From Lachnospiraceae bacterium (GTDB lineage Bacteria; Bacillota; Clostridia; Lachnospirales; Lachnospiraceae), in NCBI GenBank assembly GCA_017525525.1, contig JAFXSQ010000055.1, positions 97,327 through 161,326 on the forward strand: DNA of 64,000 nucleotides, read 5' to 3'. Shown here piece by piece: positions 9,560 through 24,524 of this stretch (position 1 is the first letter of the stretch; each line of letters begins with the position of its first letter). The notes below the pieces were generated by a model that was given only the letters and a program-made list of their open reading frames with translations, searched no databases and was not told where the DNA came from. The position numbers and the translations under genes were made by a program.

Positions 9560-9615
9560 CCTATGAGTAAACAGGACAAGCTTATAGCCACGGGAAATAA
9601 GAGCGGTGGGCAGGT

Positions 9616-9644
9616 TTGAATACGAAACTATAATAGATTATATA
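9616..9644 (+). promoter_or_regulatory. Possible sigma-A promoter
   Basis: TTGAAT, 17 bp, TATATA upstream of the double-receiver gene. Both boxes are imperfect. The rest of this 130-bp gap is AT-rich and shows only an 18-codon open frame without a ribosome site. Confidence 0.35.
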
Positions 9645-9689
9645 GATAACAAAGGATGAAAAAAAAGAATTGTGAGGGAGGACATATAA

Positions 9690-10460
9690 ATGGACAATAA
9701 GAAAAACATAGTCATTGTTTTATATCAGTACAGCGTTGTAGTTAAGGGTATCGAGAGAAAGCTTAAAGAGATGGACTTTAATGTTCAGATCCTGTCGGAA
9801 AATATCGACGATCATGATACACTAGAAAGATATGCAATGAACAACGATACCTTTATACTGTATCTTCCGCCGGACATCAACGAGAACAATCTTAGACGTT
9901 CGGAGATGACCGACATAATTGAGACTGTAAAGGAAGTCAGACGCAGTATTGTGCTCATAGGAGAGAAGAAGGATCACGAAGAGCTTTCTGCCGAAGTTCC
10001 GGGTGTGTCCTCCTGCCGTTGGTTTGACAGACCGGTTGATGTGGCTGCTCTGGCGAACGCCATAGAAAAAGGAGATTTTAAGCCTGTAGCCTCCGACGGA
10101 AAAAAGAGGGTTCTTATTGTCGATGACGATCCCTCCTACGCCGGCATGGTAAGGGAATGGATTCGGGATATGTACCACGTTGATATAGTGACAGCGGGTA
10201 TGCAGGCAATCACATTTCTTGTCAAGAACAAGGTCGACCTTATACTTCTTGACTATGAGATGCCCATAATCGACGGCCCTCAGGTTCTGCAGATGCTCAG
10301 ACAGGAGGAAAGCACAAAGGATATTCCGGTTGTCTTTCTTACAGGCGTGGGTACTAAGGAGGAGGTTGCCCGAGTGATAAGCTTAAAGCCAAACGGCTAC
10401 ATCCTGAAGTCAACCACAAGAGAAGATTTGATTAATTCAATTAAAACAAAAATTGCGTAA
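9690..10460 (+). CDS. Double-receiver protein: pseudo-receiver plus receiver, no output domain
   Basis: 256 aa. Residues 1-115 have the length and strand pattern of a receiver (IVIVLYQY, DTFILYLPPD, SIVLIGEK, WFDRPVDVAALANAIEKG) but lack the acidic pair and a convincing phosphoacceptor Asp. Residues 130-256 are a standard receiver: VLIVDDDPS, LILLDYEMP, VFLTGVG, ILKST. With no DNA-binding or enzymatic domain it may be a phosphate sink or a protein-interaction regulator. The ribosome site GAGGGAGG is strong. The next gene starts 22 nt downstream, so co-transcription with the radical-SAM genes is likely. Confidence 0.82.
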   Translation: MDNKKNIVIVLYQYSVVVKGIERKLKEMDFNVQILSENIDDHDTLERYAMNNDTFILYLPPDINENNLRRSEMTDIIETVKEVRRSIVLIGEKKDHEELSAEVPGVSSCRWFDRPVDVAALANAIEKGDFKPVASDGKKRVLIVDDDPSYAGMVREWIRDMYHVDIVTAGMQAITFLVKNKVDLILLDYEMPIIDGPQVLQMLRQEESTKDIPVVFLTGVGTKEEVARVISLKPNGYILKSTTREDLINSIKTKIA

Positions 10461-10481
10461 TTCATAAATGAGGTAATAATC

Positions 10482-12347
10482 TTGAAGCTTGCTTTACCCG
10501 ACAGAATACTTATGAATATTGAAAAGCCCGCAAGGTACATAGGACAGGAGGTTAACATGGCAGTGAAGGACATCAATTCGGTCGATGTCCGGGTTGCCAT
10601 GTGCTTTCCCGATGTATACGAAATAGGTATGTCCTACCTGGGGCTGCAGATACTTTACGACCTTTTCAACAGATATGAGGATTGCTACTGTGAGAGAGTT
10701 TTCTCGCCATGGCCGGATTTGGACAAGGTTATGCGTGAGGAGAACATAAAGCTTTTTACACTGGAGACACAGACGCCGGTCTGCGACATGGACTGGCTCG
10801 GTATCACAATTCAGTACGAGATGTGTTACACGAACATACTTCAGGTAATCGACCTTTCGGGCATTCCTCTTCTTGCCAAAGACAGGAAGAAGGGCGATGC
10901 CATAGTCATAGGCGGGGGACCCTGCACGGTCAATCCCGAGCCTGTGGCTGATTTCTTTGACATAATCTATGTAGGTGAGGGCGAGGTCTCTTACCGAAAT
11001 CTCCTTGATTTATACAAACAATATAAGAACTCGGATATGACAAGAGAGGACTTTTTACACGAGGCCTCCAAGCTGCCGGGGATATATTCTCCCTCTCTTT
11101 ATGATGTGGACTACAATGAGGACGGAACCGTAAGAGAGATAAGGCCTCTTCGAGAGGGTGTGCCGGAGAAGATAGTATGGCAGGACGTGCTTGATTTTGA
11201 GAATGCGCCTTACCCGATGAAGCCGGTTATTCCTTACTTGAAGGTAACACAGGATAGAGTCGGTCTGGAAATAATGCGTGGCTGCATAAGGGGCTGCCGC
11301 TTCTGTCAGGCGGGTATGATCTACCGACCCACAAGACAGAAGAATGTGGACATGCTCAAGAAGTATGCTAAGGAGATGCTTAAGAATACCGGTTATGAGG
11401 AGATCAACTTAAGCTCCCTTTCTTCGAGTGATTATGACAAGCTTGACGAGCTTCTGACCTTTCTTATAGAGATGAGGGATAACGATCATGTCAATGTATC
11501 GCTGCCGTCGCTTCGCGTCGATGCATTTTCGCTTGATGTGATGAGCAAGGTGCAGGATATAAAGAAGTCCAGCCTTACCTTCGCCTGTGAAGCGGGCACG
11601 CAGAGACTCAGAAACGTAATAAATAAAGGACTTACCGAGGAGTATATCATGGAGGGCTGCCGCCAGGCCTTTGTGGGTGGCTGGGACAAGGTTAAGCTTT
11701 ACTTTATGCTCGGACTTCCGACGGAGACCGAGGAGGATATGCTGGGCATAGCTGAGCTTTCACAGCGCATATCAGAGTGCTTTTTCGACAATGTACCTAA
11801 GGAGCAAAGAAACGGCAGGGTTATGATCACTGCGTCTGCATCCTACTTTGTGCCGAAACCATTTACACCGTTCCAGTGGGCGTCAATGATAAGACCTGAG
11901 GAATTCACAAGAAGGGCTCATGCCGTAAAGGACGCCTGCAACAGTATGCGAAACAAGAAGAGTATAAGGTTCATATACCATGATGCGGATATATCTATCT
12001 TAGAAGGCGTGTTCGCCCGCGGGGACAGAAGACTTTCCAAGGTGATTTTAAGGGCTTACGAAAAGGGCGCAATCTACGATGCCTGGTCGGAATTCTTCAA
12101 GCCTGCAATCTATGATGAGGCCTTTGCTGAGTGTGGTATAGACCCTTACTTTTATACGGAGAGAACCCGCCCGGAGGATGAAGTCTTCCCATGGGATCAC
12201 ATAGATGTGGGCGTGACAAGAAGCTTTCTTCTTAATGAGTGGAGACTCTCACAGCAGGAGAAGGTAACCCCAAACTGCAGGGAGAAATGCTCGGGCTGCG
12301 GCGCGGCAAAGTACGGAGGAGGTGTGTGCTATGAAGCTAAGAATTAA
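10482..12347 (+). CDS. Radical SAM protein, TIGR03960 family (B12-binding-like N-terminus)
   Basis: 621 aa. The N-terminal region (CFPDVYEIGMSYLGLQILYD) and the IGGGPCTVNPEP segment are typical of the TIGR03960 family, followed by the radical-SAM core with RGCIRGCRFCQAG (Cys-x3-Cys-x2-Cys, binding 4Fe-4S). A C-terminal Cys cluster, CREKCSGCG, precedes the end. I chose the TTG start because GAGGT lies about 8 nt upstream and the residues before EKPARYIG match the family's usual N-terminus; an ATG at 10513 is the alternative. It pairs with the following gene as in many Firmicutes. The reaction catalysed is not known to me. Confidence 0.88.
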   Translation: MKLALPDRILMNIEKPARYIGQEVNMAVKDINSVDVRVAMCFPDVYEIGMSYLGLQILYDLFNRYEDCYCERVFSPWPDLDKVMREENIKLFTLETQTPVCDMDWLGITIQYEMCYTNILQVIDLSGIPLLAKDRKKGDAIVIGGGPCTVNPEPVADFFDIIYVGEGEVSYRNLLDLYKQYKNSDMTREDFLHEASKLPGIYSPSLYDVDYNEDGTVREIRPLREGVPEKIVWQDVLDFENAPYPMKPVIPYLKVTQDRVGLEIMRGCIRGCRFCQAGMIYRPTRQKNVDMLKKYAKEMLKNTGYEEINLSSLSSSDYDKLDELLTFLIEMRDNDHVNVSLPSLRVDAFSLDVMSKVQDIKKSSLTFACEAGTQRLRNVINKGLTEEYIMEGCRQAFVGGWDKVKLYFMLGLPTETEEDMLGIAELSQRISECFFDNVPKEQRNGRVMITASASYFVPKPFTPFQWASMIRPEEFTRRAHAVKDACNSMRNKKSIRFIYHDADISILEGVFARGDRRLSKVILRAYEKGAIYDAWSEFFKPAIYDEAFAECGIDPYFYTERTRPEDEVFPWDHIDVGVTRSFLLNEWRLSQQEKVTPNCREKCSGCGAAKYGGGVCYEAKN

Positions 12348-14273: not shown

Positions 14274-14303
14274 GAAATTCTTTTTTAATGCCCTAAATAC
14301 CCA

Positions 14304-14332
14304 TTGACATAGTAGGTAAGTCGTGTTATAGT
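14304..14332 (+). promoter_or_regulatory. Sigma-A promoter of the sulfur operon
   Basis: TTGACA, 17-bp spacer, TATAGT: a near-consensus promoter about 60 bp before the Rrf2 gene and the only strong promoter found ahead of the 9-kb operon. An imperfect TACC-N13-GGTA inverted repeat (14298-14318) overlaps the -35 box and could be an autoregulatory operator; that part is speculative. Confidence 0.8.
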
Positions 14333-14388
14333 AAGCGCCATATTATTAGTCTTAATATTTTATCGTGGGAAGGGAAAGGAAGGCGCTT
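14333..14388 (+). promoter_or_regulatory. Leader inverted repeat around the Rrf2 ribosome site
   Basis: AAGCGCC (14333-14339), just after the -10 box, is the exact complement of GGCGCTT (14382-14388), just before the ATG. If transcribed, the 7-bp stem would hold the GGAAAGGAAGG ribosome site near its 3' arm. The left arm lies at or near the expected transcription start, so whether it is in the RNA is uncertain. As DNA it could be an operator. Confidence 0.4.
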
Positions 14389-14390
14389 AT

Positions 14391-14831
14391 ATGAAGGTAT
14401 CAACCAGAGTGGAATACGGGCTTATAGCACTTACCGATATCGCAATCTACAGTGAGAACGGCAAGACTGTATCGGCACCGGATATATCCGCGCGTGAGAG
14501 TATCTCACACAAATATCTTGAGCAGATATTGCTTTTATTAAGACAGGCGGGCTTTATAGCGGCGCGAAAGGGACTTAAAGGCGGATATGCGTTGTCGCGT
14601 CCGACGGATAAGATAACTCTTACGGATGTGCTTAACGCATTGGACAACGGGATACTTGCCGAAATGGAGGGTGAGTATGCGGACGACGGCTTAGGCCCGG
14701 TTATAAACGACTGTTTCTGGGGAAAGATAAACAACGAATTAAAGTCCTACACGGACAGTCTTACTTTGGAACATTTCGTGGAGCTTTGCAGGAACAGGAC
14801 ACCTGAAAGCTGGGATATGTATGTCATCTGA
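14391..14831 (+). CDS. Rrf2-family transcriptional regulator, CymR-like
   Basis: 146 aa. The N-terminus MKVSTRVEYGLIALTDIA and the winged-helix segment ISHKYLEQILLLLRQAGFIAARKG are typical Rrf2. The Fe-S cysteine trio of IscR/NsrR is absent; only two scattered cysteines occur. The C-terminal ending (SLTLEHFVELC...DMYVI) resembles CymR, the cysteine-metabolism repressor that acts with O-acetylserine sulfhydrylase. As first gene of a sulfur-assimilation operon that also encodes SAT, a CymR-like repressor responding to cysteine or O-acetylserine status is the natural reading (inference). Confidence 0.88.
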   Translation: MKVSTRVEYGLIALTDIAIYSENGKTVSAPDISARESISHKYLEQILLLLRQAGFIAARKGLKGGYALSRPTDKITLTDVLNALDNGILAEMEGEYADDGLGPVINDCFWGKINNELKSYTDSLTLEHFVELCRNRTPESWDMYVI

Positions 14832-14846
14832 AAGGACATATAAGAT

Positions 14847-16079
14847 ATGGAGTTTAATACTAAACTATTACACGGGAAAACCGCATCGGGATACGGACAG
14901 CGAGAGTTGCTTCCTCCTATATCTCAGGTGACTGCATTTCAGTACGAGAGTATGGAGGAGCTTGAAAAGGTCTTTGCTCACAAGAGTATGGGCTATGCTT
15001 ACACAAGGATAGGCAATCCGACTATCGGCGCCTTTGAAGCCAAGATTAATGAGCTCGAGGGCGGAGCCGGAGCTGTCTGTACCAGCAGCGGTATGAGCGC
15101 AATATCCACGGCACTTCTTGCGGTCTGTTCGAGCGGTGATGAGATCATCGCGGGCAACGGCCTGTACGGAGGAACCATAGACCTTTTTCATGACCTTGAG
15201 AAGCTTGGAATACATACGGTGTTTGCCGGACAGCTTACAGGTGAAAGAGTTAAGGAGCTCATTACCGATAGGACGAGGGTTATATTCGGAGAACTGATCA
15301 GCAATCCTTCGTTGACGGTGATAGACATACCGGAGTTAAGTAGTGTGGCTCATGAGGCGGGCATACCGCTTTTCGTTGATTCAACCACGGCTACACCATA
15401 CATAGCAAGGCCGCTTTCGCTCGGAGCCGATGTGGTTATTCATTCGACTTCAAAGTACATAAACGGCGGAGGCAATTCAATCGGAGGCGTGATAGTCGAC
15501 GGAGGTAAATTTGCATGGAACTTTGATAAGCACACCGCTTTATCAGATTTTAAGAAATACGGTCGTATGGCTCTCCTTTGCAGATTAAGGACTGATATAT
15601 GGGAGAACTTAGGCGGCTGTATGGCTCCGATAAATGCTTATCTATCCTACATAGGAGCCGATACATTAGGGCTAAGGATGGAAAGAATATGCGAGAATGC
15701 CTATGCTTTGGCTAATGCATTAGACAAGGAAGAGGACATAGAGGTAAATTACTTAACACTTCCCTCGCATCCCTTCCATGAATATGTAGAAAAGGAATTG
15801 AACGGCTATGGCGGAGGAATACTTACCTTCAGGGCCGGAACCAAGGAAAGAGCCTATAAGATCATCAATTCATTGAAATACGCATTTATCGCAAGCAACA
15901 TAGGAGACTTAAGAACACTTGTTATACATCCGGCTTCGACGCTTTACATCCATTCCGGAAAGGAAGAAGCAGAGGCTGCGGGAGTATACGAGGATACGAT
16001 AAGAGTAAGCATCGGTATCGAAAATAAGGAAGATCTTATAGAGGATTTCCTGAATGCGATACGACAAAGCAGGGAATGA
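14847..16079 (+). CDS. metY: O-acetylhomoserine sulfhydrylase-like PLP enzyme
   Basis: 410 aa Cys/Met-metabolism PLP enzyme (fold type I): N-terminal FNTKLLHG, YTRIGNPTIGAFEAKINELEGG, SSGMSAIST, LYGGTIDLF, and the PLP lysine in HSTSKYINGGG (K203). Length, the TRIGNPT motif and the LRTLVIHPASTLY end favour MetY (O-acetylhomoserine plus sulfide or thiocarboxylate to homocysteine) over cystathionine gamma-synthase or methionine gamma-lyase, though the latter remains possible. Next to a JAMM peptidase and a ubiquitin-like carrier/E1, it resembles the protein-thiocarboxylate methionine pathway described in Wolinella (MetY with HcyS, HcyD and HcyF, from memory). AAAGGA precedes the ATG. Confidence 0.85.
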   Translation: MEFNTKLLHGKTASGYGQRELLPPISQVTAFQYESMEELEKVFAHKSMGYAYTRIGNPTIGAFEAKINELEGGAGAVCTSSGMSAISTALLAVCSSGDEIIAGNGLYGGTIDLFHDLEKLGIHTVFAGQLTGERVKELITDRTRVIFGELISNPSLTVIDIPELSSVAHEAGIPLFVDSTTATPYIARPLSLGADVVIHSTSKYINGGGNSIGGVIVDGGKFAWNFDKHTALSDFKKYGRMALLCRLRTDIWENLGGCMAPINAYLSYIGADTLGLRMERICENAYALANALDKEEDIEVNYLTLPSHPFHEYVEKELNGYGGGILTFRAGTKERAYKIINSLKYAFIASNIGDLRTLVIHPASTLYIHSGKEEAEAAGVYEDTIRVSIGIENKEDLIEDFLNAIRQSRE

Positions 16080-16085
16080 TGAAAA

Positions 16086-16520
16086 ATGAGTTTTAATAAA
16101 ATACACATAAACGATGAAGTGCTTAAAATCATGGTTTCATCGGTCGAGGCAAGCTACCCTGCTGAGGGCTGTGGGCTTTTGTTTAAGGCTGATGACCATG
16201 CGGGTCCCGAGCTTAAGGTAAAGGCCGCTGCGGTCTGCTTTAATGAGGCAAAGGGGGTATCCGAGCACTACAGGATGGATCCGATGGAGGTCTTTAAGCA
16301 CGAGGAAAACCGCGCAAAGGAGAACTTAAGCCTGTCGGGGATATACCACTCACATCCCGACAAGCCGGCCATACTTTCGGAGGAAGACATAAGGGAGATG
16401 CTTCCGGGCATGGTATATATAGTTTTCTCGGTCTTAAGCGGTAAGGTTAAGGATATCAAAGGATTTATCAAGCACGAGAACGTGGTTCATTATGCAGAAG
16501 TAGAGGTTCAGGGAGGTTGA
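16086..16520 (+). CDS. JAMM/MPN+ zinc metallopeptidase (first of two)
   Basis: 144 aa. The complete JAMM catalytic set is visible: Glu in YPAEGCGLL and YHSHPDKPAILSEEDIR, giving H-x-H-x10-D. Bacterial JAMM proteins next to sulfur carriers cleave after the carrier's Gly-Gly. Mec+ of Mycobacterium releases cysteine from CysO-Cys, and HcyD trims its carrier. Here the next gene begins with a MoaD-like carrier whose Gly-Gly is internal, so cleavage there is the likely job (inference). It lies 7 nt after metY and 4 nt before the carrier-E1 gene. Confidence 0.9.
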   Translation: MSFNKIHINDEVLKIMVSSVEASYPAEGCGLLFKADDHAGPELKVKAAAVCFNEAKGVSEHYRMDPMEVFKHEENRAKENLSLSGIYHSHPDKPAILSEEDIREMLPGMVYIVFSVLSGKVKDIKGFIKHENVVHYAEVEVQGG

Positions 16521-16524
16521 CATC

Positions 16525-17994
16525 ATGAAGATATTTATATCGGCTACGTTGAGAAGCTTCTTCAACCGTGAGCATGAGATAGATGTAAAGGGAAAGACGG
16601 TAGGAGAGCTCCTTGAGAATATAATAAAGGAATACCCGGACAGCAAGAATGCCTTCTATGATGAGACCGGTGAGAGAAGAGGCTTTATAAAGCTTTTTGT
16701 GGACGGTGAGGACAGAACCGGCAGAGATTATGCAGTGTACAGCCTGAGCGAGAAGTCAAAGGTGCTGCTTCTTCCGGTTATCGCCGGAGGCGCGCCATCA
16801 TTAGCACAGACCGAAGCGCTTGTGTCCGATGAGAGAAGAAAAGAGGTTGAGCTTGACAATACGGAGATAGAGAGGTTCAACAAGCATCTTCTTCTTCGTG
16901 AGATAGGCGTCAAGGGACAGAAGCGGATAAAGGCTGCAAAGGTAGTCGTTGTCGGTGCCGGAGCTCTCGGCTCGGCTGTTATCCAGTACCTTGCGGCTGC
17001 CGGTGTCGGAACCATAAAGGTTATTGACAGCAGCGCGGTTGCCTTAGAGGATCTCCAAAGCCAGGTGCTTCACTCGTTAAGAGATGTAAAGCGTCCCAAG
17101 TCGGCATCGGCCAGGGACAGCATAAGAAACATAAACAGAAGCATAGAGGTTATAGCCGAGAATGAGGACATAAGCGCAGACAATGCTTCGGAGCTTATCG
17201 AAGACTTTGATCTCGTGGTTGATTGTTCCGATAATTTCAAAACAAGATATACATTAAATGATGCCTGCATATTAAACGGTATTCCGGTTGTCTTCGGAGC
17301 CATATACCAGTTCGAAGGACAGGTAAGCATACTCGGTCATAACGGAGGACCATGCTTAAGATGCGTATATCCTTCACCGCCGCCGGCAGGTCTTGTTCCA
17401 AGCTGTGCAGAGGGTGGAACCATAAGTCCTCTTGCGGGTATAGTAGGAAGCATACAGGCAAATGAAGCCTTAAAGCTCATTATGGGCATAGGCGAGCATT
17501 TAAGCGGCAAGCTCCTTACGGTAGATACGCTTTACCTAAATTCAAGCGTACTCAATGTAAAGAGAAGCTGTAACTGTCCGCTCTGCGGTGATACACCGAC
17601 AATTACTGAGGTTGAGACCTATGATTACGAAGATTTCTGCGGCTTAAAGGCAAAGGAGGATGAGGTACCTGTTGAAGGCTTTACACCTGAGGAGCTTGCG
17701 AAGAAGATAGATGCCGGTGAACCGCTGAAGATCATAGATGTAAGAGAGCCTCATGAAAGAGCAATACTTAGGTTCCCGGGCGCAGTGGTTATCCCGATAG
17801 GACAGCTTGTAAGAAGGCAGAAGGAGCTTGATCCGAATATCGACACAGTATTCTTATGTAAGCAGGGCAAGAGAAGCATACTTGCCATAAACACATTGAG
17901 AGAGGCGGGCTACACAGGCCCTATGTACAACCTTAAAGGCGGTCTTGACGCCATGAAGGATATCGTCCTTGCAAATGAGGGCGGCTGGCTGTAG
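16525..17994 (+). CDS. MoaD-like carrier / E1-like (MoeB/ThiF) / rhodanese triple fusion
   Basis: 489 aa. Residues 1-89 form a MoaD/ThiS beta-grasp carrier ending LLLPVIAGG, but the Gly-Gly (88-89) is followed by APSLAQ and a linker instead of a C-terminus. Residues about 112-365 are an E1-like adenylating domain: nucleotide loop GAGALGSAV, Zn pairs CLRC and CPLC, catalytic Cys in VPSCAEGG (C294). Residues about 385-489 are a rhodanese with active-site loop CKQGKRS (C445), the MoeZ/MOCS3 type that accepts persulfide sulfur. A carrier fused to its own activator needs proteolysis to expose Gly-Gly, which fits the adjacent JAMM gene. Strong GGGAGG ribosome site. Confidence 0.9.
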   Translation: MKIFISATLRSFFNREHEIDVKGKTVGELLENIIKEYPDSKNAFYDETGERRGFIKLFVDGEDRTGRDYAVYSLSEKSKVLLLPVIAGGAPSLAQTEALVSDERRKEVELDNTEIERFNKHLLLREIGVKGQKRIKAAKVVVVGAGALGSAVIQYLAAAGVGTIKVIDSSAVALEDLQSQVLHSLRDVKRPKSASARDSIRNINRSIEVIAENEDISADNASELIEDFDLVVDCSDNFKTRYTLNDACILNGIPVVFGAIYQFEGQVSILGHNGGPCLRCVYPSPPPAGLVPSCAEGGTISPLAGIVGSIQANEALKLIMGIGEHLSGKLLTVDTLYLNSSVLNVKRSCNCPLCGDTPTITEVETYDYEDFCGLKAKEDEVPVEGFTPEELAKKIDAGEPLKIIDVREPHERAILRFPGAVVIPIGQLVRRQKELDPNIDTVFLCKQGKRSILAINTLREAGYTGPMYNLKGGLDAMKDIVLANEGGWL

Positions 17995-17999
17995 GTATT

Positions 18000-18019
18000 A
18001 AGACCTTTAAAGAAGGCTT
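18000..18019 (+). terminator. Weak hairpin before the encapsulin gene (possible attenuator)
   Basis: AAG-A-CCTT pairs with AAGGCTT (one bulged A, 5-nt loop), followed by TTATAC. It is too weak for a firm terminator call, but it sits in the widest gap of the operon before the R3 repeat and could set shell-versus-enzyme stoichiometry as an attenuator or processing site. Confidence 0.3.
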
Positions 18020-18062
18020 TTATACAATGTATTAATTATTTTTCACCTAGGAGGAAAAAGAG

Positions 18063-19019
18063 ATGGCAAAAGAAACAGAGAAGACAACAGGCATTAACGC
18101 ATTGGGTGCGGCTGCGGCTTATAACCTTGCGAACGTGACCAAGACAAAGCCCCAGTTTGGTGCAATCACACCGAAGTGGCTTACCAAATTCCTTGAGTTC
18201 AAGGGACTTGAGACAGGTATATTCAGAGTAAATAAGGTCGTTGAGGGTGAGACACCCCTTGATGTACTCTGCAGCCAGACCAAGAAATCAGACATCATAC
18301 CGGAAGGCTATGTTGAGTATGAGACAGAGCCCCGTGAGTACAGACTTAATTCGATATCAACCATAATCAATGTTAATACCGCAATCGAGGATGTATACAG
18401 CGCTCCCTACGATCAGGTACAGGAGCAGCTCGGACTTGCTATAGAGTCCTTGAGAGAGCGTCAGGAGAGCCAGCTTATCAACAACGATGACTACGGTCTT
18501 CTCAAGAATATAGCTGACAGCCAGAGAATACAGACAAGGAACGGAGCACCTACTCCGGATGACCTTGATGAGCTTATAACAAAGGTTTGGAAGGAGCCTT
18601 CATTCTTCCTTGCTCACCCGAGAGCTATCGCTGCATTTGAGAGAGAATGCACAAAGAGAGGAGTTCCGCCGGTTGTTGTTAACCTTGCAGGAGGTAACTT
18701 CGTTACATGGAGAGGAATCCCGATCATTCCTACAGACAAGCTTCTTGTTGACGGCCTGAAGAACCCCACCTCACAGAGCGGCAAGACAAACATCCTTCTT
18801 ATTAGGACAGGCGAGGCTAAGCGCGGTGTTATAGGTCTTTTCCAGGCAGGTCTTAAGAATGAGCATTCACGCGGACTTTCGGTACGTTTCCGTGGTATAG
18901 ATGACAAGGGCGTTGCTTCTTATCTGCTTTCATTATACTGCTCTGCAGCCATTCTTGCTGATGACGCTATCGCAGTGCTTGAAGATGTGGAAGTAGGTGA
19001 GTACTATGACTACGAGTAA
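18063..19019 (+). CDS. Family 2A encapsulin shell protein (SrpI-like)
   Basis: 318 aa, HK97-type capsid fold protein. I recognise the SrpI/Family 2A pattern: long N-terminal arm (ALGAAAAYNLANVTKTKPQFGAITPKWLTKFL), NSISTIINVNTAIEDVYS, EQLGLAIESLRERQESQLINNDDYGLL, FFLAHPRAIAAFERECTKRGVPP, FVTWRGIPIIPTDKL and VRFRGIDDKGVASYLLSLYCSAAILADDAIAVLEDVEVGEY (cut here by eye). Family 2A shells self-assemble into nanocompartments that enclose cysteine desulfurase. The next gene is such a desulfurase with a cargo-type extension, overlapping by 14 nt. Very strong ribosome site TAGGAGGA. There are no phage genes nearby, so this is not a prophage remnant. Confidence 0.92.
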   Translation: MAKETEKTTGINALGAAAAYNLANVTKTKPQFGAITPKWLTKFLEFKGLETGIFRVNKVVEGETPLDVLCSQTKKSDIIPEGYVEYETEPREYRLNSISTIINVNTAIEDVYSAPYDQVQEQLGLAIESLRERQESQLINNDDYGLLKNIADSQRIQTRNGAPTPDDLDELITKVWKEPSFFLAHPRAIAAFERECTKRGVPPVVVNLAGGNFVTWRGIPIIPTDKLLVDGLKNPTSQSGKTNILLIRTGEAKRGVIGLFQAGLKNEHSRGLSVRFRGIDDKGVASYLLSLYCSAAILADDAIAVLEDVEVGEYYDYE

Positions 19020-20757
19020 TCCCTTCGGTGGTTTCGAGGAGCTTTACGGTCTTCCGAGCGCGGAGGCTCTGTCGGCTCTTGCCAACGCTTACGAAGGTGA
19101 TGACTTTACCGGAGCAACGGCACCTGCATCCGCAAGTGTGCCCGATTATGCTTCTTCATCCGAGGCAACTGTAGTACCTGCTTATCCGGCACCCGATCCG
19201 GAATCGATACCTGATACAGGTTCAGTATTTACAGCAGTACCGTCTGATGATTATTCGGTTCCGGCCGCAACTGTTCCCGAGCATGAGTACTCAGCACCTT
19301 TTGTAACAGCTCCTTCAGCGGATTACAAGGCTTACTCACAGGCTGCAGGCGGACAGTTCGATTGGGAGCATCCCATCGCATATGCAGCAGCTGAGCCGGT
19401 AAGCTACTCGCCGAGAGTACAGTCGCAGGAGCAGGCCAAGGAAGAGGACAGAAGCATAGATGTTCCGACATCACTTCAAGGTGATGCGGCAGCTAAAGAA
19501 GATGATACCGTAAAGCCCGGAAACTCACGAAATGATAGTATCAGAATAGGCAGCAAGACGCTTCAGCAGATAAGAGATGATTTCCCAATCTTAAAGGAAA
19601 GAATAAACGGTAATCCTCTCGTATGGCTTGACAACGGTGCAACCACACAGCGTCCCAAGGCTGTTATAGACAGAATATCTTATTATTACGAACATGAGAA
19701 TTCAAATGTACACAGAGGAGCTCACACACTCGCTGCAAGGTCTACGGATGCTTACGAGGGTGCAAGAGATATAGTAAGGGATTTTATCGGTGCACCGAGC
19801 TCAGAGGAGATAGTATTCGTAAGAGGCACCACAGAGGCCATAAACCTTGTGGCTAACGCTTATGTAAAGCCTCAACTTGAGCCGGGTGACGAGATAATCG
19901 TATCCATCTTAGAGCACCATGCGAACATAGTTCCGTGGCAGCTTATCGCTCAGAAGACAGGCGCTGTGTTAAAGGTGATCCCCTGCGATGAGACAGGCCA
20001 GCTTATCTTGAGCGAGTACGAAAAGCTCTTTACCAAGAGAACAAAGTTTGTTGCTGTTACACATGTGTCTAACGTATTAGGCACCGTAACTCCTATAGAG
20101 GAGCTTATTGCGATAGCACACAGGCACGGAGTAAGGATACTTATCGACGGAGCGCAGTCTGTTGCACATATCCCGGTAAATGTATCGGCTCTCGATGCTG
20201 ACTTCTTCGTCTTCTCAGGACACAAGATATTTGCTCCTACAGGCATAGGTGTTGTGTACGGCAAGAAGGAGCTTCTTGAAGCTGCAGAGCCATATCACGG
20301 TGGCGGTAATATGATTGCTGATGTTACATTTGAAAGAACCATATACAACGGTATTCCGAACAAGTTTGAAGCGGGTACCGGAAGCATAGCGGACGCGGTG
20401 GGACTCGGTGCTGCATTGAATTACCTTACCGAGATCGGCATGCCATGTGTATACAGATGGGAGCACGAGCTCTTACAGTATGCAATGAGCGAGATGAGAA
20501 AGATCCCCGGACTTACGCTGATAGGTACAGCCTTAAATAAGGCTTCGGTTCTTTCCTTCAAGCTTGACGGTTACTCTGATGATGAGGTCGGAAAGAGACT
20601 TGACAGCTACGGCATAGCGGTAAGAACGGGACATCACTGTGCTCAGCCGGTGCTCAGGCACTTCGGCTACGAGGGTTCGGTGAGACCTACACTTGCGCTT
20701 TACAATTCACCTGAAGATATAGATGCTCTTGTTAAGGTTTTAAGAACCTTTGCATAG
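19006..20757 (+). CDS. Encapsulin cargo: SufS-type cysteine desulfurase with disordered N-terminal extension
   Basis: 583 aa from the ATG with AGGTGA upstream (a GTG at 18997 is less likely). Residues 1-183 are low-complexity (Ala, Pro, Ser, Thr, Tyr, Asp, Glu; recurrent Y-S-x-P and P-x-x-D-Y patterns) starting TTSNPFGGFEELYG: the unstructured targeting domain seen on Family 2A cargo desulfurases. From 184 (KTLQQIRDDFPILKE) follows a group II cysteine desulfurase: WLDNGATTQRP, ILEHHANIVPWQ, PLP lysine in SGHKIFAPTG (K407), catalytic Cys in RTGHHCAQP (C545). It converts cysteine to alanine and enzyme persulfide. The 14-nt overlap with the shell gene couples their translation. Confidence 0.93.
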   Translation: MTTSNPFGGFEELYGLPSAEALSALANAYEGDDFTGATAPASASVPDYASSSEATVVPAYPAPDPESIPDTGSVFTAVPSDDYSVPAATVPEHEYSAPFVTAPSADYKAYSQAAGGQFDWEHPIAYAAAEPVSYSPRVQSQEQAKEEDRSIDVPTSLQGDAAAKEDDTVKPGNSRNDSIRIGSKTLQQIRDDFPILKERINGNPLVWLDNGATTQRPKAVIDRISYYYEHENSNVHRGAHTLAARSTDAYEGARDIVRDFIGAPSSEEIVFVRGTTEAINLVANAYVKPQLEPGDEIIVSILEHHANIVPWQLIAQKTGAVLKVIPCDETGQLILSEYEKLFTKRTKFVAVTHVSNVLGTVTPIEELIAIAHRHGVRILIDGAQSVAHIPVNVSALDADFFVFSGHKIFAPTGIGVVYGKKELLEAAEPYHGGGNMIADVTFERTIYNGIPNKFEAGTGSIADAVGLGAALNYLTEIGMPCVYRWEHELLQYAMSEMRKIPGLTLIGTALNKASVLSFKLDGYSDDEVGKRLDSYGIAVRTGHHCAQPVLRHFGYEGSVRPTLALYNSPEDIDALVKVLRTFA

Positions 20758-20776
20758 GGAGGATACTTAACACTTA

Positions 20777-21736
20777 ATGGAAGATATTATCAAAGAAGAA
20801 GAGATAGACGGAATAGTCGGGACGATTCTTGCGGATTATAAAGGCGGAAAGAATATAGACAATACGGATATATTCAGCAAGCCCGACAAGAAAGAGGTAA
20901 GGGACATTATTCACAATCTGTTCAGGATAATGTTCCCCGGCTATTACAAGGATAAGAATTATAAGATTTATAATCTTAAGAACAGTCTTGCGGTAACCAT
21001 CGAGGATATCTTTTATCACCTGAACAAGCAGGTAATGCTGGCTCTTGACTTCTGCAAGCTCAGGGGCGTGATGACGGAGGATGAGAGAAAAGCTGAGAGC
21101 TACCGCATATGCCGGGAATTCTTCAACAAGCTTCCTTTTGTCAGAGAGTGTGTAGAGACTGATCTTCTTGCAGCCTTCGACGGAGACCCCGCCGCGGGCT
21201 GCTTAGAGGAGATCGTCCTTGCATATCCGGGACTTTACGCGGGAACGGTTTACCGCATAGCACATGAGCTGTATCTGCTTAATGTACCGGTACTCCCGAG
21301 ACTTATGACGGAGTATGCGCATTCTCAGACCGGCATAGACATTCACCCGGGTGCGTCTATAGATAAGTATTTTTTCATAGACCACGGTACGGGCATAGTG
21401 ATTGGCGAAACAGCAGTCATAGGACAGAATGTCAAGATATACCAGGGTGTTACCTTGGGAGCTTTATCCACAAGAGGCGGACAGAAGCTTTCGGGAAAGA
21501 AGAGACATCCGACCATCAAGGACAATGTTACTATTTACGCAGGAGCCTCTATCTTAGGCGGTGATACCGTGATAGGTGAGAATTCCGTGATAGGCGGCAA
21601 TACATTTATCACAAGCTCCATACCTGCGGACACAAGAGTAAGCATTAAGAACCCTGAGATGGATATAAGAACAAACGACAACAAGCATAAGCATGAAGAG
21701 GTTAAGCAGAGCGACGAGTGGTACTATATGATTTGA
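20777..21736 (+). CDS. epsC: Serine O-acetyltransferase, EpsC type
   Basis: 319 aa. The helical N-terminal region (about 1-170) is longer than in CysE; the SAT core has YRIAHELYLLNVPVLPRLMTEYAHSQTGIDIHPGA, then left-handed beta-helix hexapeptides (FIDHGTGIVIGETAVIGQNVKIYQGVTLGALS and KRHPTIKDNVTIYAGASILGG region). It makes O-acetylserine from serine and acetyl-CoA, the acceptor for cysteine synthesis. SAT genes are recurrent neighbours of Family 2A encapsulins. No O-acetylserine sulfhydrylase (CysK/CysM) is visible in the window; MetY or a gene elsewhere must use the product. The C-terminus carries a short charged tail (about 290-319). Confidence 0.9.
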   Translation: MEDIIKEEEIDGIVGTILADYKGGKNIDNTDIFSKPDKKEVRDIIHNLFRIMFPGYYKDKNYKIYNLKNSLAVTIEDIFYHLNKQVMLALDFCKLRGVMTEDERKAESYRICREFFNKLPFVRECVETDLLAAFDGDPAAGCLEEIVLAYPGLYAGTVYRIAHELYLLNVPVLPRLMTEYAHSQTGIDIHPGASIDKYFFIDHGTGIVIGETAVIGQNVKIYQGVTLGALSTRGGQKLSGKKRHPTIKDNVTIYAGASILGGDTVIGENSVIGGNTFITSSIPADTRVSIKNPEMDIRTNDNKHKHEEVKQSDEWYYMI

Positions 21737-21756
21737 GTAAAATCTGAACAAAGCAG

Positions 21757-21893
21757 TGTCATTCTGAGCGAAGCGACGCAGACCTCAATGCGAAGCGTTG
21801 AGGTGCCGGCCTTCGATGTCATAAGGAATCCACCGCAAGCGGTACCCCTTATGACGAAATGCGAGGGCTTGCGAAGCAACAGGAAGAATCTTA
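21757..21893 (+). repeat. Long-form palindromic intergenic repeat inside the sulfur operon
   Basis: Begins TGTCATTCTGAGCGAAGC and ends GAAGCAACAGGAAGAATCTTA. It contains stem CCTCAATGC/GCGTTGAGG and the nested stem GTCATAAGG..CCGC/GCGG..CCTTATGAC. It is nearly identical over its length to the copies near 62.2 and 63.9 kb. Lying between SAT and ThiS, its hairpins could lower or stabilise expression of the downstream half of the operon. Confidence 0.85.
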
Positions 21894-21920
21894 AATTAAC
21901 AGAGAGGAGATGCAAAGATC

Positions 21921-22130
21921 ATGAACATAACCGTAGCAGGAACAAAGAAGGAGGTAGCAGACGGCCTTACCGTATCAGCTCTTATAGAGCTTGAGCAGGT
22001 TGAGACACCTCAGTATGTTACCGTGTCCGTGAACGAGGAATTCATCGGCTCAGATACATTTGATGCACATGTGCTTAAGGAGGGCGATGAGGTTGAATTT
22101 CTTTACTTCATGGGAGGAGGTGCCCGCTAA
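21921..22130 (+). CDS. ThiS-like sulfur carrier with masked C-terminus
   Basis: 69 aa beta-grasp protein: MNITVAGTKKEV start, VTVSVNEEFI and VLKEGDEVEFLYFMGGG. Mature ThiS-family carriers end in Gly-Gly so that the E1 can adenylate the carboxylate; here two residues, Ala-Arg, follow the glycines. Either a peptidase trims it (the JAMM gene two downstream is the candidate) or the tail is a by-product of overlap, since the GGAGGAGGT coding for Gly-Gly-Gly is also the ribosome site of the next gene. Stop and next start share one base (TAATG). Dedicated to cysteine, methionine or thiamine sulfur transfer; operon context favours amino-acid synthesis. Confidence 0.85.
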   Translation: MNITVAGTKKEVADGLTVSALIELEQVETPQYVTVSVNEEFIGSDTFDAHVLKEGDEVEFLYFMGGGAR

Positions 22131-22948
22131 TGCCCTTTACTAACGAACAGCTTGAGAGATACTCAAGACATATAATCTTAAAGGAGATAGGAGCGAAGGG
22201 GCAGAAGAAGCTTCTCAACGCCAAGGTGCTTATAATCGGTGCCGGCGGCTTAGGCGCTCCGGCGGCTTTGTACCTTGCGGCTGCGGGTGTGGGAACCATA
22301 GGCATAGTTGATGCGGATGTAGTTGATCTTTCAAATCTCCAAAGACAGGTTATACATACAACCAATGACATAGGCAAGAAGAAGGTTGAGTCTGCGGCTG
22401 AGACAATGCGCGCAATCAATCCCGATGTCACAGTCAATACCTATTACGATTTCGTAAGCAGTGCGAACATCATGGATCTTATAAAGGACTATGATTTTGT
22501 GCTTGACGGAACCGATAACTTCCCTGCGAAGTTCCTTATCAATGATGCATGCGTTATGGCCAAGAAGCCGCTTTCGCATGCAGGTATTATCAGATTCAAA
22601 GGGCAGCTTACGACTATTCTTCCGGGCGAAGGCCCATGTTACAGATGTATCTTCAAGAATCCGCCACCAAAGGACGCCGTACCTACCTGTAAGCAGGCAG
22701 GAGTAATAGGCGCCATGGGCGGTGTGATAGGTTCGCTTCAGGCTATGGAAGCAGTTAAGTATATCACCGGTGTCGGTGAGCTTTTAAGCGGTTATCTGCT
22801 TACCTATGATGCACTGAAGATGGAATTCCACAAGATTAAGCTGCCACCCCGCGGAAAGGGCTGTGCCGTATGCTCGGATACTCCGACCATCACGAAGCTT
22901 ATCGATTACGAGCAGCCGGCCTGCGAGTTTCACCCGGGAGGGAAATAA
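22130..22948 (+). CDS. E1-like sulfur-carrier adenylyltransferase (ThiF/MoeB family)
   Basis: 272 aa. RYSRHIILKEIGAKGQKKL start, nucleotide loop GAGGLGAPAAL, DLSNLQRQ, GTDNFPAKFLINDAC, Zn-binding CYRC and CAVC pairs, and the acyl-transfer Cys in VPTCKQAGV (C187, equivalent to the ThiF catalytic Cys). It activates the C-terminal Gly of a carrier with ATP for thiocarboxylate formation. No rhodanese is fused, unlike the paralogue 5 kb upstream, so sulfur must arrive from TusA, the cysteine desulfurase or that rhodanese. Coupled to the ThiS-like gene by a 1-nt overlap. Confidence 0.92.
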   Translation: MPFTNEQLERYSRHIILKEIGAKGQKKLLNAKVLIIGAGGLGAPAALYLAAAGVGTIGIVDADVVDLSNLQRQVIHTTNDIGKKKVESAAETMRAINPDVTVNTYYDFVSSANIMDLIKDYDFVLDGTDNFPAKFLINDACVMAKKPLSHAGIIRFKGQLTTILPGEGPCYRCIFKNPPPKDAVPTCKQAGVIGAMGGVIGSLQAMEAVKYITGVGELLSGYLLTYDALKMEFHKIKLPPRGKGCAVCSDTPTITKLIDYEQPACEFHPGGK

Positions 22949-22949
22949 T

Positions 22950-23387
22950 ATGAAGATAACCATCAAAAAATCCGATTATGACAGAATATATGAGCACGCC
23001 TTAAAGGAACGTCCCGATGAGGCCTGCGGCCTTATAGCCGGCGTTGACAGGGAGGACGGTGTAAGGGAGATTCAGAAGGTTTACCTTCTGACCAATATCG
23101 ACCACACCAACGAACATTTCTCCATAGATCCCAAGGAACAGCTTGCTTCTATAAAGGATATGCGTGCAAACGGTCTGTCGCCCTTAGGCAACTGGCATTC
23201 GCATCCCGAGTCTCCGTCAAGACCTTCTGAGGAGGACAAGAGACTTGCAAATGACAGCAAGGCAAGCTACCTTATCCTGTCTCTTCAGGAGGAGGGTAAT
23301 CCGGTTTTGAATGCTTTCCATGTGGAGGGCGAGCAGGGAGCAAGAACTGTCAGAAAGGAAGAACTGATTGTAATAGAGGAGGAATAG
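22950..23387 (+). CDS. JAMM/MPN+ zinc metallopeptidase (second of two)
   Basis: 145 aa from the ATG with GGGAGGG upstream; an earlier in-frame start inside the E1 gene gives unrelated sequence and is rejected. Catalytic Glu in RPDEACGLIAG and WHSHPESPSRPSEEDKR, giving H-x-H-x10-D with the conserved Ser. Close to Mec+/CysO-type peptidases that release cysteine from carrier-amino-acid adducts. Together with the carrier and E1 before it, it completes a second carrier module. Candidate for removing Ala-Arg from the ThiS-like protein, for releasing product, or both (inference). Confidence 0.9.
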   Translation: MKITIKKSDYDRIYEHALKERPDEACGLIAGVDREDGVREIQKVYLLTNIDHTNEHFSIDPKEQLASIKDMRANGLSPLGNWHSHPESPSRPSEEDKRLANDSKASYLILSLQEEGNPVLNAFHVEGEQGARTVRKEELIVIEEE

Positions 23388-23390
23388 TTT

Positions 23391-23636
23391 ATGGCTGAGT
23401 TTAATGTAGATGAGACGATTGATATAACTGATGTAACCTGCCCCATAACCTTCGTGAAGACCAAAGTTGCTCTTGAGGAGATGGATGAGGGCCAGATACT
23501 TCAGGTTCATATCGCCGACGGCGAGCCTATACAGAATGTTCCGAGAAGCATAAAGGAAGAGGGACATGAAGTATTAAAGATTGATGATAACGGTGACGGT
23601 ACCTTTGAGATGTATATCAAAAAGATTGGTGACTGA
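23391..23636 (+). CDS. TusA/SirA-family sulfurtransferase
   Basis: 81 aa with the family's CPITFVKTKVALEEM motif: the Cys-Pro pair near the N-terminus carries the transferable sulfane sulfur. Fold and length fit TusA. Last gene of the operon, preceded by GAGGAGGA and followed by a strong terminator. Expected role: shuttle persulfide sulfur from the cysteine desulfurase to the E1/carrier pair. Confidence 0.88.
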   Translation: MAEFNVDETIDITDVTCPITFVKTKVALEEMDEGQILQVHIADGEPIQNVPRSIKEEGHEVLKIDDNGDGTFEMYIKKIGD

Positions 23637-23656
23637 TTATTAGACATATGCTGAAA

Positions 23657-23693
23657 AAAAAGCCTGCGGAATTGTCCTTGCCGCAGGCTTTTT
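23657..23693. terminator. Bidirectional intrinsic terminator
   Basis: AAAAAGCCTGCGG pairs perfectly with CCGCAGGCTTTTT around an 11-nt loop. A-rich 5' and T-rich 3' flanks make it work on both strands, ending the sulfur operon and the convergent hisK transcript. Confidence 0.93.
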
Positions 23694-23696
23694 GGT

Positions 23697-24524
23697 TTAT
23701 ATTATGTCATAAAACTTCGGTTTTCTTTTAACAAAAGTGGCGTAAGCCTTAAACCCACATTCAAGCAGCAGCTCGCGTGCCTTATCGAAACCGTAACCCA
23801 CATATTTTGAAAAGTGGGCGTCGGAACCGACGGTAATGATCTCACCGCCTAAATCGTGGTAGAGCTTTAGGATTTCTTTATGCGGGTGAGGGTAGGAGAG
23901 GTTCTTATATAACGAGCCTGTGTTTACCTCTATACCGCCCCCGGCGCTGATTATAGTCTTCAATAGTTCTTCGAATATCTCGTAATAATCTTTAAGTTCA
24001 AATACATAATCCTTGTAATCCCCATATCTGACTATGTAGTCTAAGTGTCCGTACACATCAAAATCGGTAAAGCCTTTTACGGTCTCCAGGATACATTCAA
24101 AGTATCTGCCGAAGGCCTGTACGGGGGATTTGCCTTCGTAGTACTCGGAATAGTAAGGATCGTATCCGTCGACTATGTGAGTGCTGCAGATAAGAAAGTC
24201 GAGGTCACTGTGTTCTTTTGCATACTCGGCCGCCTTCTTAACTGTAGAGGGCATAACACCGAGCTCGACACCCTTCTTTAAAGTAAAGCCCTGTGGGAGC
24301 TTTGTTTTGATCTCGTCGATCTCACGACTGTATGCATCGAAATCAAGCTGGAAGGCCATCACTCCCTCCTCATAGGAGTACTTCATGGGGAAGTCTATGT
24401 CATGGTGATCTGTTATGCAAATTTCGTCTATTCCGTTAGACACAGCCTGCTTTATGATATTGTCTAAGCTCTCGTCACTGTCAGTGGAGTGATGAGTGTG
24501 AAGATGATAATCGGGGAATGGCAT
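23697..24524 (-). CDS. hisK: PHP-family histidinol-phosphatase
   Basis: 275 aa. The PHP signature at the N-terminus (DYHLHTHHSTDSDES), ITDHHDID, GVELGV, CSTHIVDGYDPYYSEYY, DVYGHLDYIVRYG and the closing VTVGSDAHFSKYVGYGF supply the metal-binding His/Asp set. Family role: dephosphorylates histidinol phosphate in histidine biosynthesis. Other his genes (hisB, hisIE) lie 20 kb away. Downstream of the SGNH lipoprotein gene by 11 nt with an AAGGAGA ribosome site, so co-transcribed. Confidence 0.88.
   Translation of the reverse strand: MPFPDYHLHTHHSTDSDESLDNIIKQAVSNGIDEICITDHHDIDFPMKYSYEEGVMAFQLDFDAYSREIDEIKTKLPQGFTLKKGVELGVMPSTVKKAAEYAKEHSDLDFLICSTHIVDGYDPYYSEYYEGKSPVQAFGRYFECILETVKGFTDFDVYGHLDYIVRYGDYKDYVFELKDYYEIFEELLKTIISAGGGIEVNTGSLYKNLSYPHPHKEILKLYHDLGGEIITVGSDAHFSKYVGYGFDKARELLLECGFKAYATFVKRKPKFYDII

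Follow-up and report, generated by a model that had tools for sequence, protein, structure and literature searches.

What becomes of the sulfur that a cysteine desulfurase takes from cysteine inside an encapsulin shell? Encapsulins with the cargo-type cysteine desulfurase CyD are held to store elemental sulfur, although our literature search brought up no paper on this, and to our knowledge the fate of that sulfur is an open question. It is raised again by an operon of a Lachnospiraceae bacterium (assembly GCA_017525525.1, contig JAFXSQ010000055.1) at positions 14,300-23,693 of the window, that is, of the whole stretch of 64,000 nucleotides that was analysed. Its eleven genes, all open and all on the plus strand, code in order for an Rrf2-family regulator, a MetY-like pyridoxal phosphate (PLP) enzyme, a JAMM metallopeptidase (JAMM1), a MoaD-E1-rhodanese fusion, an encapsulin, CyD, a serine O-acetyltransferase (SAT), a ThiS-like sulfur carrier, an E1-like adenylyltransferase (E1b), a second JAMM (JAMM2) and a TusA-like protein. 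JAMM1 and the fusion are called module 1 below, and the ThiS-like carrier, E1b and JAMM2, followed by TusA, module 2. Adjacent genes overlap or lie at most 70 bp apart, except for a gap of 184 bp between the SAT and ThiS genes. A first-pass annotation had placed one promoter, these eleven genes and a terminator here, and ORFs (open reading frames), profile matches and folding confirmed this. With a slight lean in its favour, we read the operon as a system of sulfur salvage and re-assimilation with two inlets.

The shell gene (18063..19019) codes for a family 2A encapsulin, which matched model NF041162 with 492.5 bits (cut-off 380), a score that rules out a phage capsid. PF19307 was its sole Pfam match, no cNMP domain was present and the SrpI chain 6x8m was matched, so that the protein is of the SrpI-type HK97 kind. 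The CyD gene (18997..20757) starts inside the shell gene, with an overlap of 23 bp, and encodes a SufS core (TIGR01979, 543.6 bits; cut-off 475.1) with an N-terminal extension of about 190 residues, in which LSALANAY at residues 25-32 resembles the published cargo-loading motif type LARLANEFFS (excerpts of PMC8049743). Of 73 CyD proteins, 39 contain a strict form of this motif and 68 a loose one, where shuffled sequences gave at most 2 and on average 7.9, respectively; the patterns were written after the data had been seen, and they used the LARLANEFFS type and left out AASPYYFLDG, the other published motif. Encapsulated CyD in SrpI shells shows higher activity inside the shell, according to excerpts of PMC8049743. 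The SAT gene that follows (20777..21736) scored 150.9 bits with NF041874 (cut-off 150) and 164.8 with TIGR01172, below its cut-off of 210.65. From these likenesses we infer shell assembly, CyD loading, confinement by the shell and hand-over of the sulfur.

The shell protein of the window was 88-97% identical to those of eight other loci, at which only 0.21-0.49 of the four-fold synonymous sites were identical. These values speak against recent transfer or contamination of metagenome-assembled genomes (MAGs) as the cause of the near-identical shells; in addition, the shell was found in records not labelled MAG (L026, L038, L091 and L095, by title, and an Aliarcobacter cibarius plasmid). Because of the low identity at four-fold sites, strong purifying selection together with an older transfer fits the sequences better. 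In the same comparison, nonsynonymous divergence (dN) was 0.03-0.08 for the shell and 0.63-0.88 for JAMM1 (window against eight and seven loci, respectively).

We compared the operon with the loci around the best 80 of at least 563 confirmed shell matches in named genomes, ranked by likeness to this shell and mapped with BLAST and home-made hidden Markov models on raw ORFs, taking taxa and phyla from the record titles. Because these loci were chosen by shell likeness, their shares apply to this shell clade alone, and because many contigs are short, a gene that is absent from a locus may often lie out of view. Of the 74 loci with at least 1.5 kb of upstream sequence, 70 have an E1-rhodanese gene, mostly accompanied by a ubiquitin-like carrier and a JAMM, immediately ahead of the shell gene; the four exceptions are L065, L069, L083 and L096. 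A likely receiver of the sulfur thus adjoins the shell gene, and therefore the fate of CyD sulfur could be tested with one operon. In L065, a Clostridia MAG, the E1-rhodanese is present and its ORF (9191-10942) continues into the encapsulin in the same frame, uninterrupted by a stop codon, so that rhodanese and shell may be fused; a stop codon in frame within the upstream MoaD part means that an error in the sequence or the assembly may be involved.

The fusion gene of the window (16525..17994; PF02597 24.4 bits with a cut-off of 22.5, PF00899 246.7, PF00581 55.9) joins a MoaD domain with an internal diglycine (G88-G89), a linker, an E1 domain and a rhodanese with the loop CKQGKRS. Among solved structures, which like the phylogenies were compared by sequence alone, the MoaD domain matched 4n6e_B (E 1.5e-15) and 3dwg_C (E 7e-14), the latter of which we take to be CysO. 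The internal diglycine was retained in 54 of 56 fusions, 8 to 32 residues ahead of the E1 start motif, and in an alignment of 39 of the 56 (L054 and L055, which have lost the diglycine, were among those left out) the only invariant MoaD columns were L9, P84, A87, G88 and G89, with variable residues after the diglycine. Free MoaD was labelled in 20 ORFs, two of them off-frame, and in the other 18 IAGG precedes a variable tail of 0 to about 50 residues. Since the diglycine of the fusion is internal and the free carriers carry variable tails behind it, cleavage by a JAMM is probably needed to free the carriers. JAMM1 (16086..16520; PF14464, 61.7 bits) has an intact HSHP...SEED motif, and the general form HxHP...SxxD was found in 87 of 88 JAMM ORFs, the remaining one keeping H, H, S and D. 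A ubiquitin-fold carrier fused to its own activating enzyme through a nearly invariant internal diglycine offers a bacterial parallel to ubiquitin precursors. Among 391 genomes of the class, 44 matched the profile of the fusion with an E value of 1e-60 or lower (at most four candidates scored per genome). In two of them, which both have this shell, the match spans the whole profile; the other 42 matches start no earlier than position 48 and reach no further than position 396 of 487, covering mainly the E1 part.

Both proteins that would process or form the first carrier change fast, JAMM1 being 28-39% identical between the window and seven loci and the MoaD domain 33-58% where the MoaD of the window was the best match. 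This would fit a carrier and a peptidase that have been freed from a third partner, perhaps CysM, and are yet bound to each other; it would also fit slow decay, the chief rival account, which is weighed below. The two fusions that have lost the diglycine (L054 7141-8775 and L055 3-1559) come from rumen planctomycetes, show GE in its place and have gained a cysteine-rich linker; the 7 kb upstream of the L054 fusion gave no JAMM match, and L055 has too little sequence to judge.

The second carrier is encoded at 21921..22130 (TIGR01683, 61.6 bits; cut-off 37.45) in a precursor form that ends in YFMGGG-AR, and GGG followed by 1-6 residues closed 31 of 32 such carriers. E1b (22130..22948; PF00899, 295 bits) has no rhodanese, JAMM2 (22950..23387; PF14464, 91.4 bits; chain 2kks, E 3.5e-36) keeps the HSHP...SEED motif, and the TusA/SirA-like sulfurtransferase (23391..23636; PF01206, 74 bits) has its CP motif. 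The carrier module had previously been described as duplicated, a claim that found no support: sequence identity is 42% between the two E1s and, over 79 residues, 32% between the two JAMMs, and their neighbours differ in other genomes, which rules out a recent duplication of one module. Module 2 was tied to sulfite reduction in a search of 15 genomes, taken from 19 hand-picked ones (six with the shell and fairly complete congeners). Sulfite reductase was found in six, and in five of these module 2, with ThiS, E1b and JAMM2 all matched, lay within 2 kb of it (G064 and G068, away from the shell; G006 and G035, without a shell; G406, downstream of the shell); the sixth is the genome of the window, which has it on a different contig, C22. 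In G012, an 80% complete genome with both modules, no sulfite reductase was found.

The PLP enzymes follow the same division. With an identity line that we set at 50% between MetY and CysM labels, a CysM-like gene occurred in 21 of the 80 loci, only one of which (L065) has module 2, and a MetY-like gene (at least 50% identity) in 29, of which 24 have module 2 and three of the other five have little downstream sequence; for the CysM-like protein of L011 the nearest solved enzyme was OASS-B. This near exclusion and pairing indicate a CysO-like module 1 and a TusA-linked module 2. In view of the low E1 and JAMM identities, CysM beside module 1 and sulfite reductase beside module 2, the operon looks like two different modules joined, one of CysO type and the other of TusA-linked or HcyS type, and its relatives offer a traceable series of two carrier pathways merging into one operon. 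On the E1-rhodanese trees (from one of which the long rows L053, L054, L055 and L061 were excluded), two changes are required between free and fused forms and three between CysM and MetY.

Some further arrangements were seen around the second module and the synthase genes. JAMM2 and TusA share one reading frame, as a JAMM-TusA fusion, in L018 (12699-13493) and L020 (9555-10280), the loci nearest to the window. L098, L032 and L022 carry likely sulfate-assimilation genes near the operon, for a PAPS-reductase-domain protein, a flavin adenine dinucleotide (FAD) protein, an EF-Tu-type GTPase and sulfite reductase; we presume that the FAD protein is AprA-like and the GTPase CysN-like. Upstream of the CysM-type locus L071 lies a gene (6062-6898) for a PP-loop protein with a weak Pfam match, which presumably resembles LarE.

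A family 2A shell was present in 6 of 99 genomes of the same genus and its surroundings and in 7 of 391 in the class sample. The co-occurrence of this encapsulin with two JAMM and two E1 genes, proposed earlier as a check, was found: all ten structural genes stood together in 17 of the 80 loci, in four phyla by title, and the joining of encapsulin, CyD and SAT to JAMM, ubiquitin-like protein (UBL) and E1 genes behind one conserved promoter element recurs in other phyla. Gene order varies, with SAT last in L028 and L034 and module 2 first in L019 and L022, and module 2 may precede the shell genes, follow them or diverge from them. By title, the 80 loci come from Lachnospiraceae and other Clostridia, Fibrobacter, Succinivibrionaceae, planctomycetes, Treponema and other spirochaetes, Synergistaceae, Desulfovibrio, Enterobacter and others. 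About twenty titles point to a site in the ruminant gut or to deer or reindeer as the source, and further bin names presumably belong to rumen or termite gut sets. An E1-rhodanese clade of 33 with support 100/99 unites 22 Bacillota rows with Fibrobacter, one planctomycete and one Pseudomonadota row, which suggests transfer of this gene between phyla. The complete plasmid pACIB of Aliarcobacter cibarius (L120), typed as mobilizable, holds genes for a cysteine synthase, a JAMM (M67), MoaD, the shell, CyD and cysE, that is, module 1 and the shell, with insertion sequence elements inside the gene set, one of them interrupting the E1-rhodanese region; it is one of six plasmid loci examined among 32 PLSDB records with a match, whose gene tables are incomplete. 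Annotated family 2A loci whose shells are 55-59% identical were examined in Synechococcus (SrpI), Azospirillum, Variovorax and Methylosinus, and none of the four lists a JAMM, MoaD or E1 within 8 kb. JAMM, MoaD and E1-rhodanese were also unseen near six shells at 45-65% identity (L007 and L099-L103), although the sequence ahead of the L101 shell is a mere 450 bases long and in L103 an E1 stands alone 5 kb upstream.

Expression of the operon would start from a promoter with a likely operator (14300..14332, plus strand), with CCCATTGACATAGTAGG over the -35 box and TATAGT as the -10 box. The promoter (TTGACA, 17 bp, TATAGT; 14304-14332) has 11 of 12 consensus matches, and promoter-like sites in the region as a whole showed no excess (11 vs 14 in shuffles). 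The -35 box is covered by a 17-bp element with the consensus CCTATTGACATAGTAGG and a CCTA...TAGG dyad, which was defined after the sequences had been seen and which, with at most two mismatches, occurred 24 times in the 80 loci and 0.2 times in block shuffles. Twenty of the 24 copies lay within about 505 bp before rrf2, metY, JAMM1, cysM, tusA or the fusion gene; the others stood before cysK (L051), before other or unlabelled genes (two in L036) and without a labelled downstream gene (L064). The two copies in L036 (10788 and 12228) hint at a wider regulon. The window has a single copy at up to three mismatches, its own site having one, and because 15 of 100 window shuffles also gave at least one match at that threshold, the weight of the element rests on its conservation in other loci. 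The Rrf2 protein (14391..14831; PF02082, 89.6 bits) is the likely regulator of this operon and may bind the element. It had been called CymR-like, and the family assignment stood, unlike CymR itself (NF047409, 75.2 bits vs a cut-off of 195). In the same way, the enzyme named MetY (14847..16079; PF01053, 348.6 bits; nearest solved chain 8sf5) belongs to the O-acetylhomoserine/O-acetylserine sulfhydrylase family of PLP enzymes and stayed below the MetY model (TIGR01326, 395.3 bits vs 495.1), so it is safer to speak of an 'Rrf2 regulator' and a 'Cys/Met-metabolism PLP enzyme'.

The gap between SAT and ThiS folds with z -4.15 and holds a structured repeat of about 140 bp (21756..21894) that resembles a miniature inverted-repeat transposable element and stands outside the pathway; 40 scored near-copies at 93-100% identity were found in the genome (255 first-look candidates). 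In L018, L020 and L026 the ORFs are 97, 16 and 19 bp apart in this region. Because the gap holds a dispersed repeat, co-transcription of both operon halves in this strain is likely rather than established. Downstream of tusA, a hairpin terminator with a U run (23657..23693, plus strand) closes the operon; the stretch 23637-23700 folds at -21.3 kcal/mol with z -3.40.

How might these parts work together? In the scheme that we propose, gene identities, motifs, gene order, glycines, tails, the promoter element and co-occurrence come from the sequences, and every catalytic or transfer step, shell assembly, loading, Rrf2 binding and the pairing of carriers with PLP enzymes from homologues. CyD, loaded through its N-terminal motif, would strip sulfur from cysteine and hold it as persulfide or polysulfide in or at the shell, and the rhodanese domain of the fusion would take this sulfane sulfur. 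JAMM1 would cut the fusion after the internal diglycine, releasing a CysO-like carrier that the E1 would adenylate and that the rhodanese sulfur would convert to a C-terminal thiocarboxylate. In parallel, JAMM2 would trim the ThiS-like carrier to its glycine end, and E1b and TusA would load it, probably with sulfur from sulfite reduction. The PLP enzymes (MetY here, CysM in many relatives) would then combine the carrier thiocarboxylates with O-acetylhomoserine or with O-acetylserine made by SAT, a JAMM would free homocysteine or cysteine, and the Rrf2 protein would tune the operon through the element over the -35 box. The recurrence of the set in several phyla suggests a shared way of taking cysteine sulfur and rebuilding amino acids. 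More speculatively, and with clearly less confidence, the operon can be pictured as a sulfur bank, in which encapsulin and CyD deposit cysteine sulfur and a self-contained pro-enzyme, cut by a JAMM dedicated to it, withdraws it in the form of carrier thiocarboxylate, from which cysteine or homocysteine is rebuilt; the gene set would have travelled between gut bacteria belonging to several phyla and exchanged CysM for MetY on gaining the second, sulfite-linked module.

Several observations weigh against the salvage reading and some of them feed its rivals. CyD scored 790.4 bits with the cargo model NF041166, just under the cut-off of 800; the window operon has no CysM in Pfam scans and thus no assigned user of the first carrier; two fusions lack the diglycine; and JAMMs are missing from part of the relatives, with JAMM1 unseen in eight loci that combine the fusion with module 2 (L043 among them has no upstream sequence) and no JAMM at all seen in eight further fusion loci (pre-fusion sequence of 1.4 to 8.5 kb in L054, L095, L052, L093 and L061, almost none in L055, L046 and L030). 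From such gaps one may argue that module 1 is degenerating: once MetY and an HcyS-type module had been captured, MoaD and JAMM1 would have become jobless and the fusion would act only as an E1-rhodanese, handing sulfur from the encapsulin on to the ThiS-like carrier. The presence of CysM in just one (L065) of 29 loci with module 2, the divergence of JAMM1, the fastest of all, and of the MoaD domain, the seven module-2 loci without JAMM1 that do have upstream sequence and the two planctomycete fusions, one of them (L054) with upstream sequence and no JAMM found, all agree with this. However, the diglycine and the JAMM motif have been kept so widely despite fast divergence that they look selected in most lineages, and we regard decay as an unlikely account. 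We think it similarly improbable that the halves are separate pathways standing side by side, with the encapsulin and module 1 for sulfur storage or Fe-S use and module 2 for sulfate assimilation. Module 2 does stand by sulfite reductase in the five genomes named above, its position varies relative to the shell genes, and the dispersed repeat lies between the halves in this strain, which also counts against the salvage reading; but the clustering of the ten structural genes across four phyla, the single copy of the promoter element in the window and the near exclusion of CysM and module 2 speak for a joint function.

The remaining rivals assign the carriers to other pathways, and both seem to us very improbable. 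PADLOC models for E1-E2 and JAB proteins match the E1s and JAMMs of the operon, as a ubiquitin-like conjugation or anti-phage system (E1-JAMM-UBL) with incidental sulfur genes would require, but the E1-E2 models matched over the E1 stretch only, or over the JAB stretch for JAMM2, no E2 domain was found in Pfam scans of the eleven operon proteins, and the fused rhodanese, TusA, PLP enzymes and SAT indicate sulfur transfer. The family names MoaD and ThiS recall molybdopterin or thiamine synthesis, and here too the genome holds points against our reading, namely MoaC, by which a link to molybdenum is not fully closed, and one partial ThiG match just above the cut-off (25.3 vs 23). Both uses are nevertheless unlikely, since the two carriers of the operon are the only ThiS/MoaD domains found in the genome, MoaE was not found there or in any of the six encapsulin-bearing genomes searched (two of them 80% complete), and ThiG was partial in three of these six and absent from the other three. 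Lastly, two CysK/CysM genes above the cut-off elsewhere in the same genome weaken the case for salvage, and as such genes were found in all 19 hand-picked genomes, a sole cysteine route is ruled out. The earlier suggestion that cysteine and homocysteine would form without free sulfide is a conjecture, and this genome also encodes a sulfite reductase besides those two enzymes. Given these ordinary genes, the salvage and re-assimilation that we favour would be an additional route to cysteine.

Compared with known systems, the operon is closest in its shell to the SrpI locus of Synechococcus elongatus, with which it shares the shell family, a SufS-type desulfurase with a long N-terminal extension, a SAT nearby, a rhodanese and a sulfur setting (excerpts of PMC8049743 and PMC8346489). 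The SrpI locus on pANL differs in that its annotation shows CysK, EpsC and an unfused rhodanese, with no gene for a JAMM, UBL or E1 listed up to 8 kb away; the operon described here fuses its rhodanese to MoaD-E1 and has a carrier-type synthase. In the main text of PMC8346489, SAT and rhodanese are the most enriched neighbours and 'ubiquitin' and 'ThiF' do not occur. Module 1 resembles the CysO/MoeZ/Mec+/CysM pathway, whose CysO thiocarboxylate is made by MoeZR (excerpts of PMC3227635), in its CysO-like carrier with diglycine, E1 plus rhodanese and JAMM, with CysM in the relatives L011, L071, L074, L075 and L077. It differs from that pathway in the link to encapsulin and CyD, in the fusion of the carrier to its own E1, in the internal diglycine and in MetY, which replaces CysM in the group of the window. 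A MoaD with an internal diglycine that needs a protease is also known from MoaX of M. tuberculosis, cut between Gly82 and Ser83 by a protease then unidentified (excerpts of PMC4326299), and from MoaD-MoaE of D. radiodurans, whose diglycine is freed by DRJAMM, a JAMM (excerpts of PMC8832034); here the partner is the carrier's own E1-rhodanese instead of MoaE, and the cleavage is a presumed one. For module 2 the nearest parallels lie in carrier pathways to homocysteine. The HcyS/HcyF/HcyD pathway of Wolinella was reportedly described in a 2011 paper, which PMC5764234 cites. Together with neighbourhood type 4e (excerpts of PMC1779556), it has a tailed carrier, an E1 without rhodanese, a JAMM, SirA/TusA and O-acetylhomoserine sulfhydrylase, all present here, and it differs in that here sulfite reductase lies on another contig and the module is joined to an encapsulin operon. 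In excerpts of Iyer et al. 2006 (PMC1779556), the CysO-like genes (type 4c) and the carrier/E1/JAMM/SirA genes (type 4e) are separate neighbourhood types, and a different Ub-like domain is fused to some ThiF proteins. Encapsulin jointly with ThiF or 'sulfur carrier' was not found in the main text of open-licence papers. The parts of this operon are thus of known kinds, and the union of encapsulin and carrier modules and the self-fused pro-carrier appear new within the searchable open literature.

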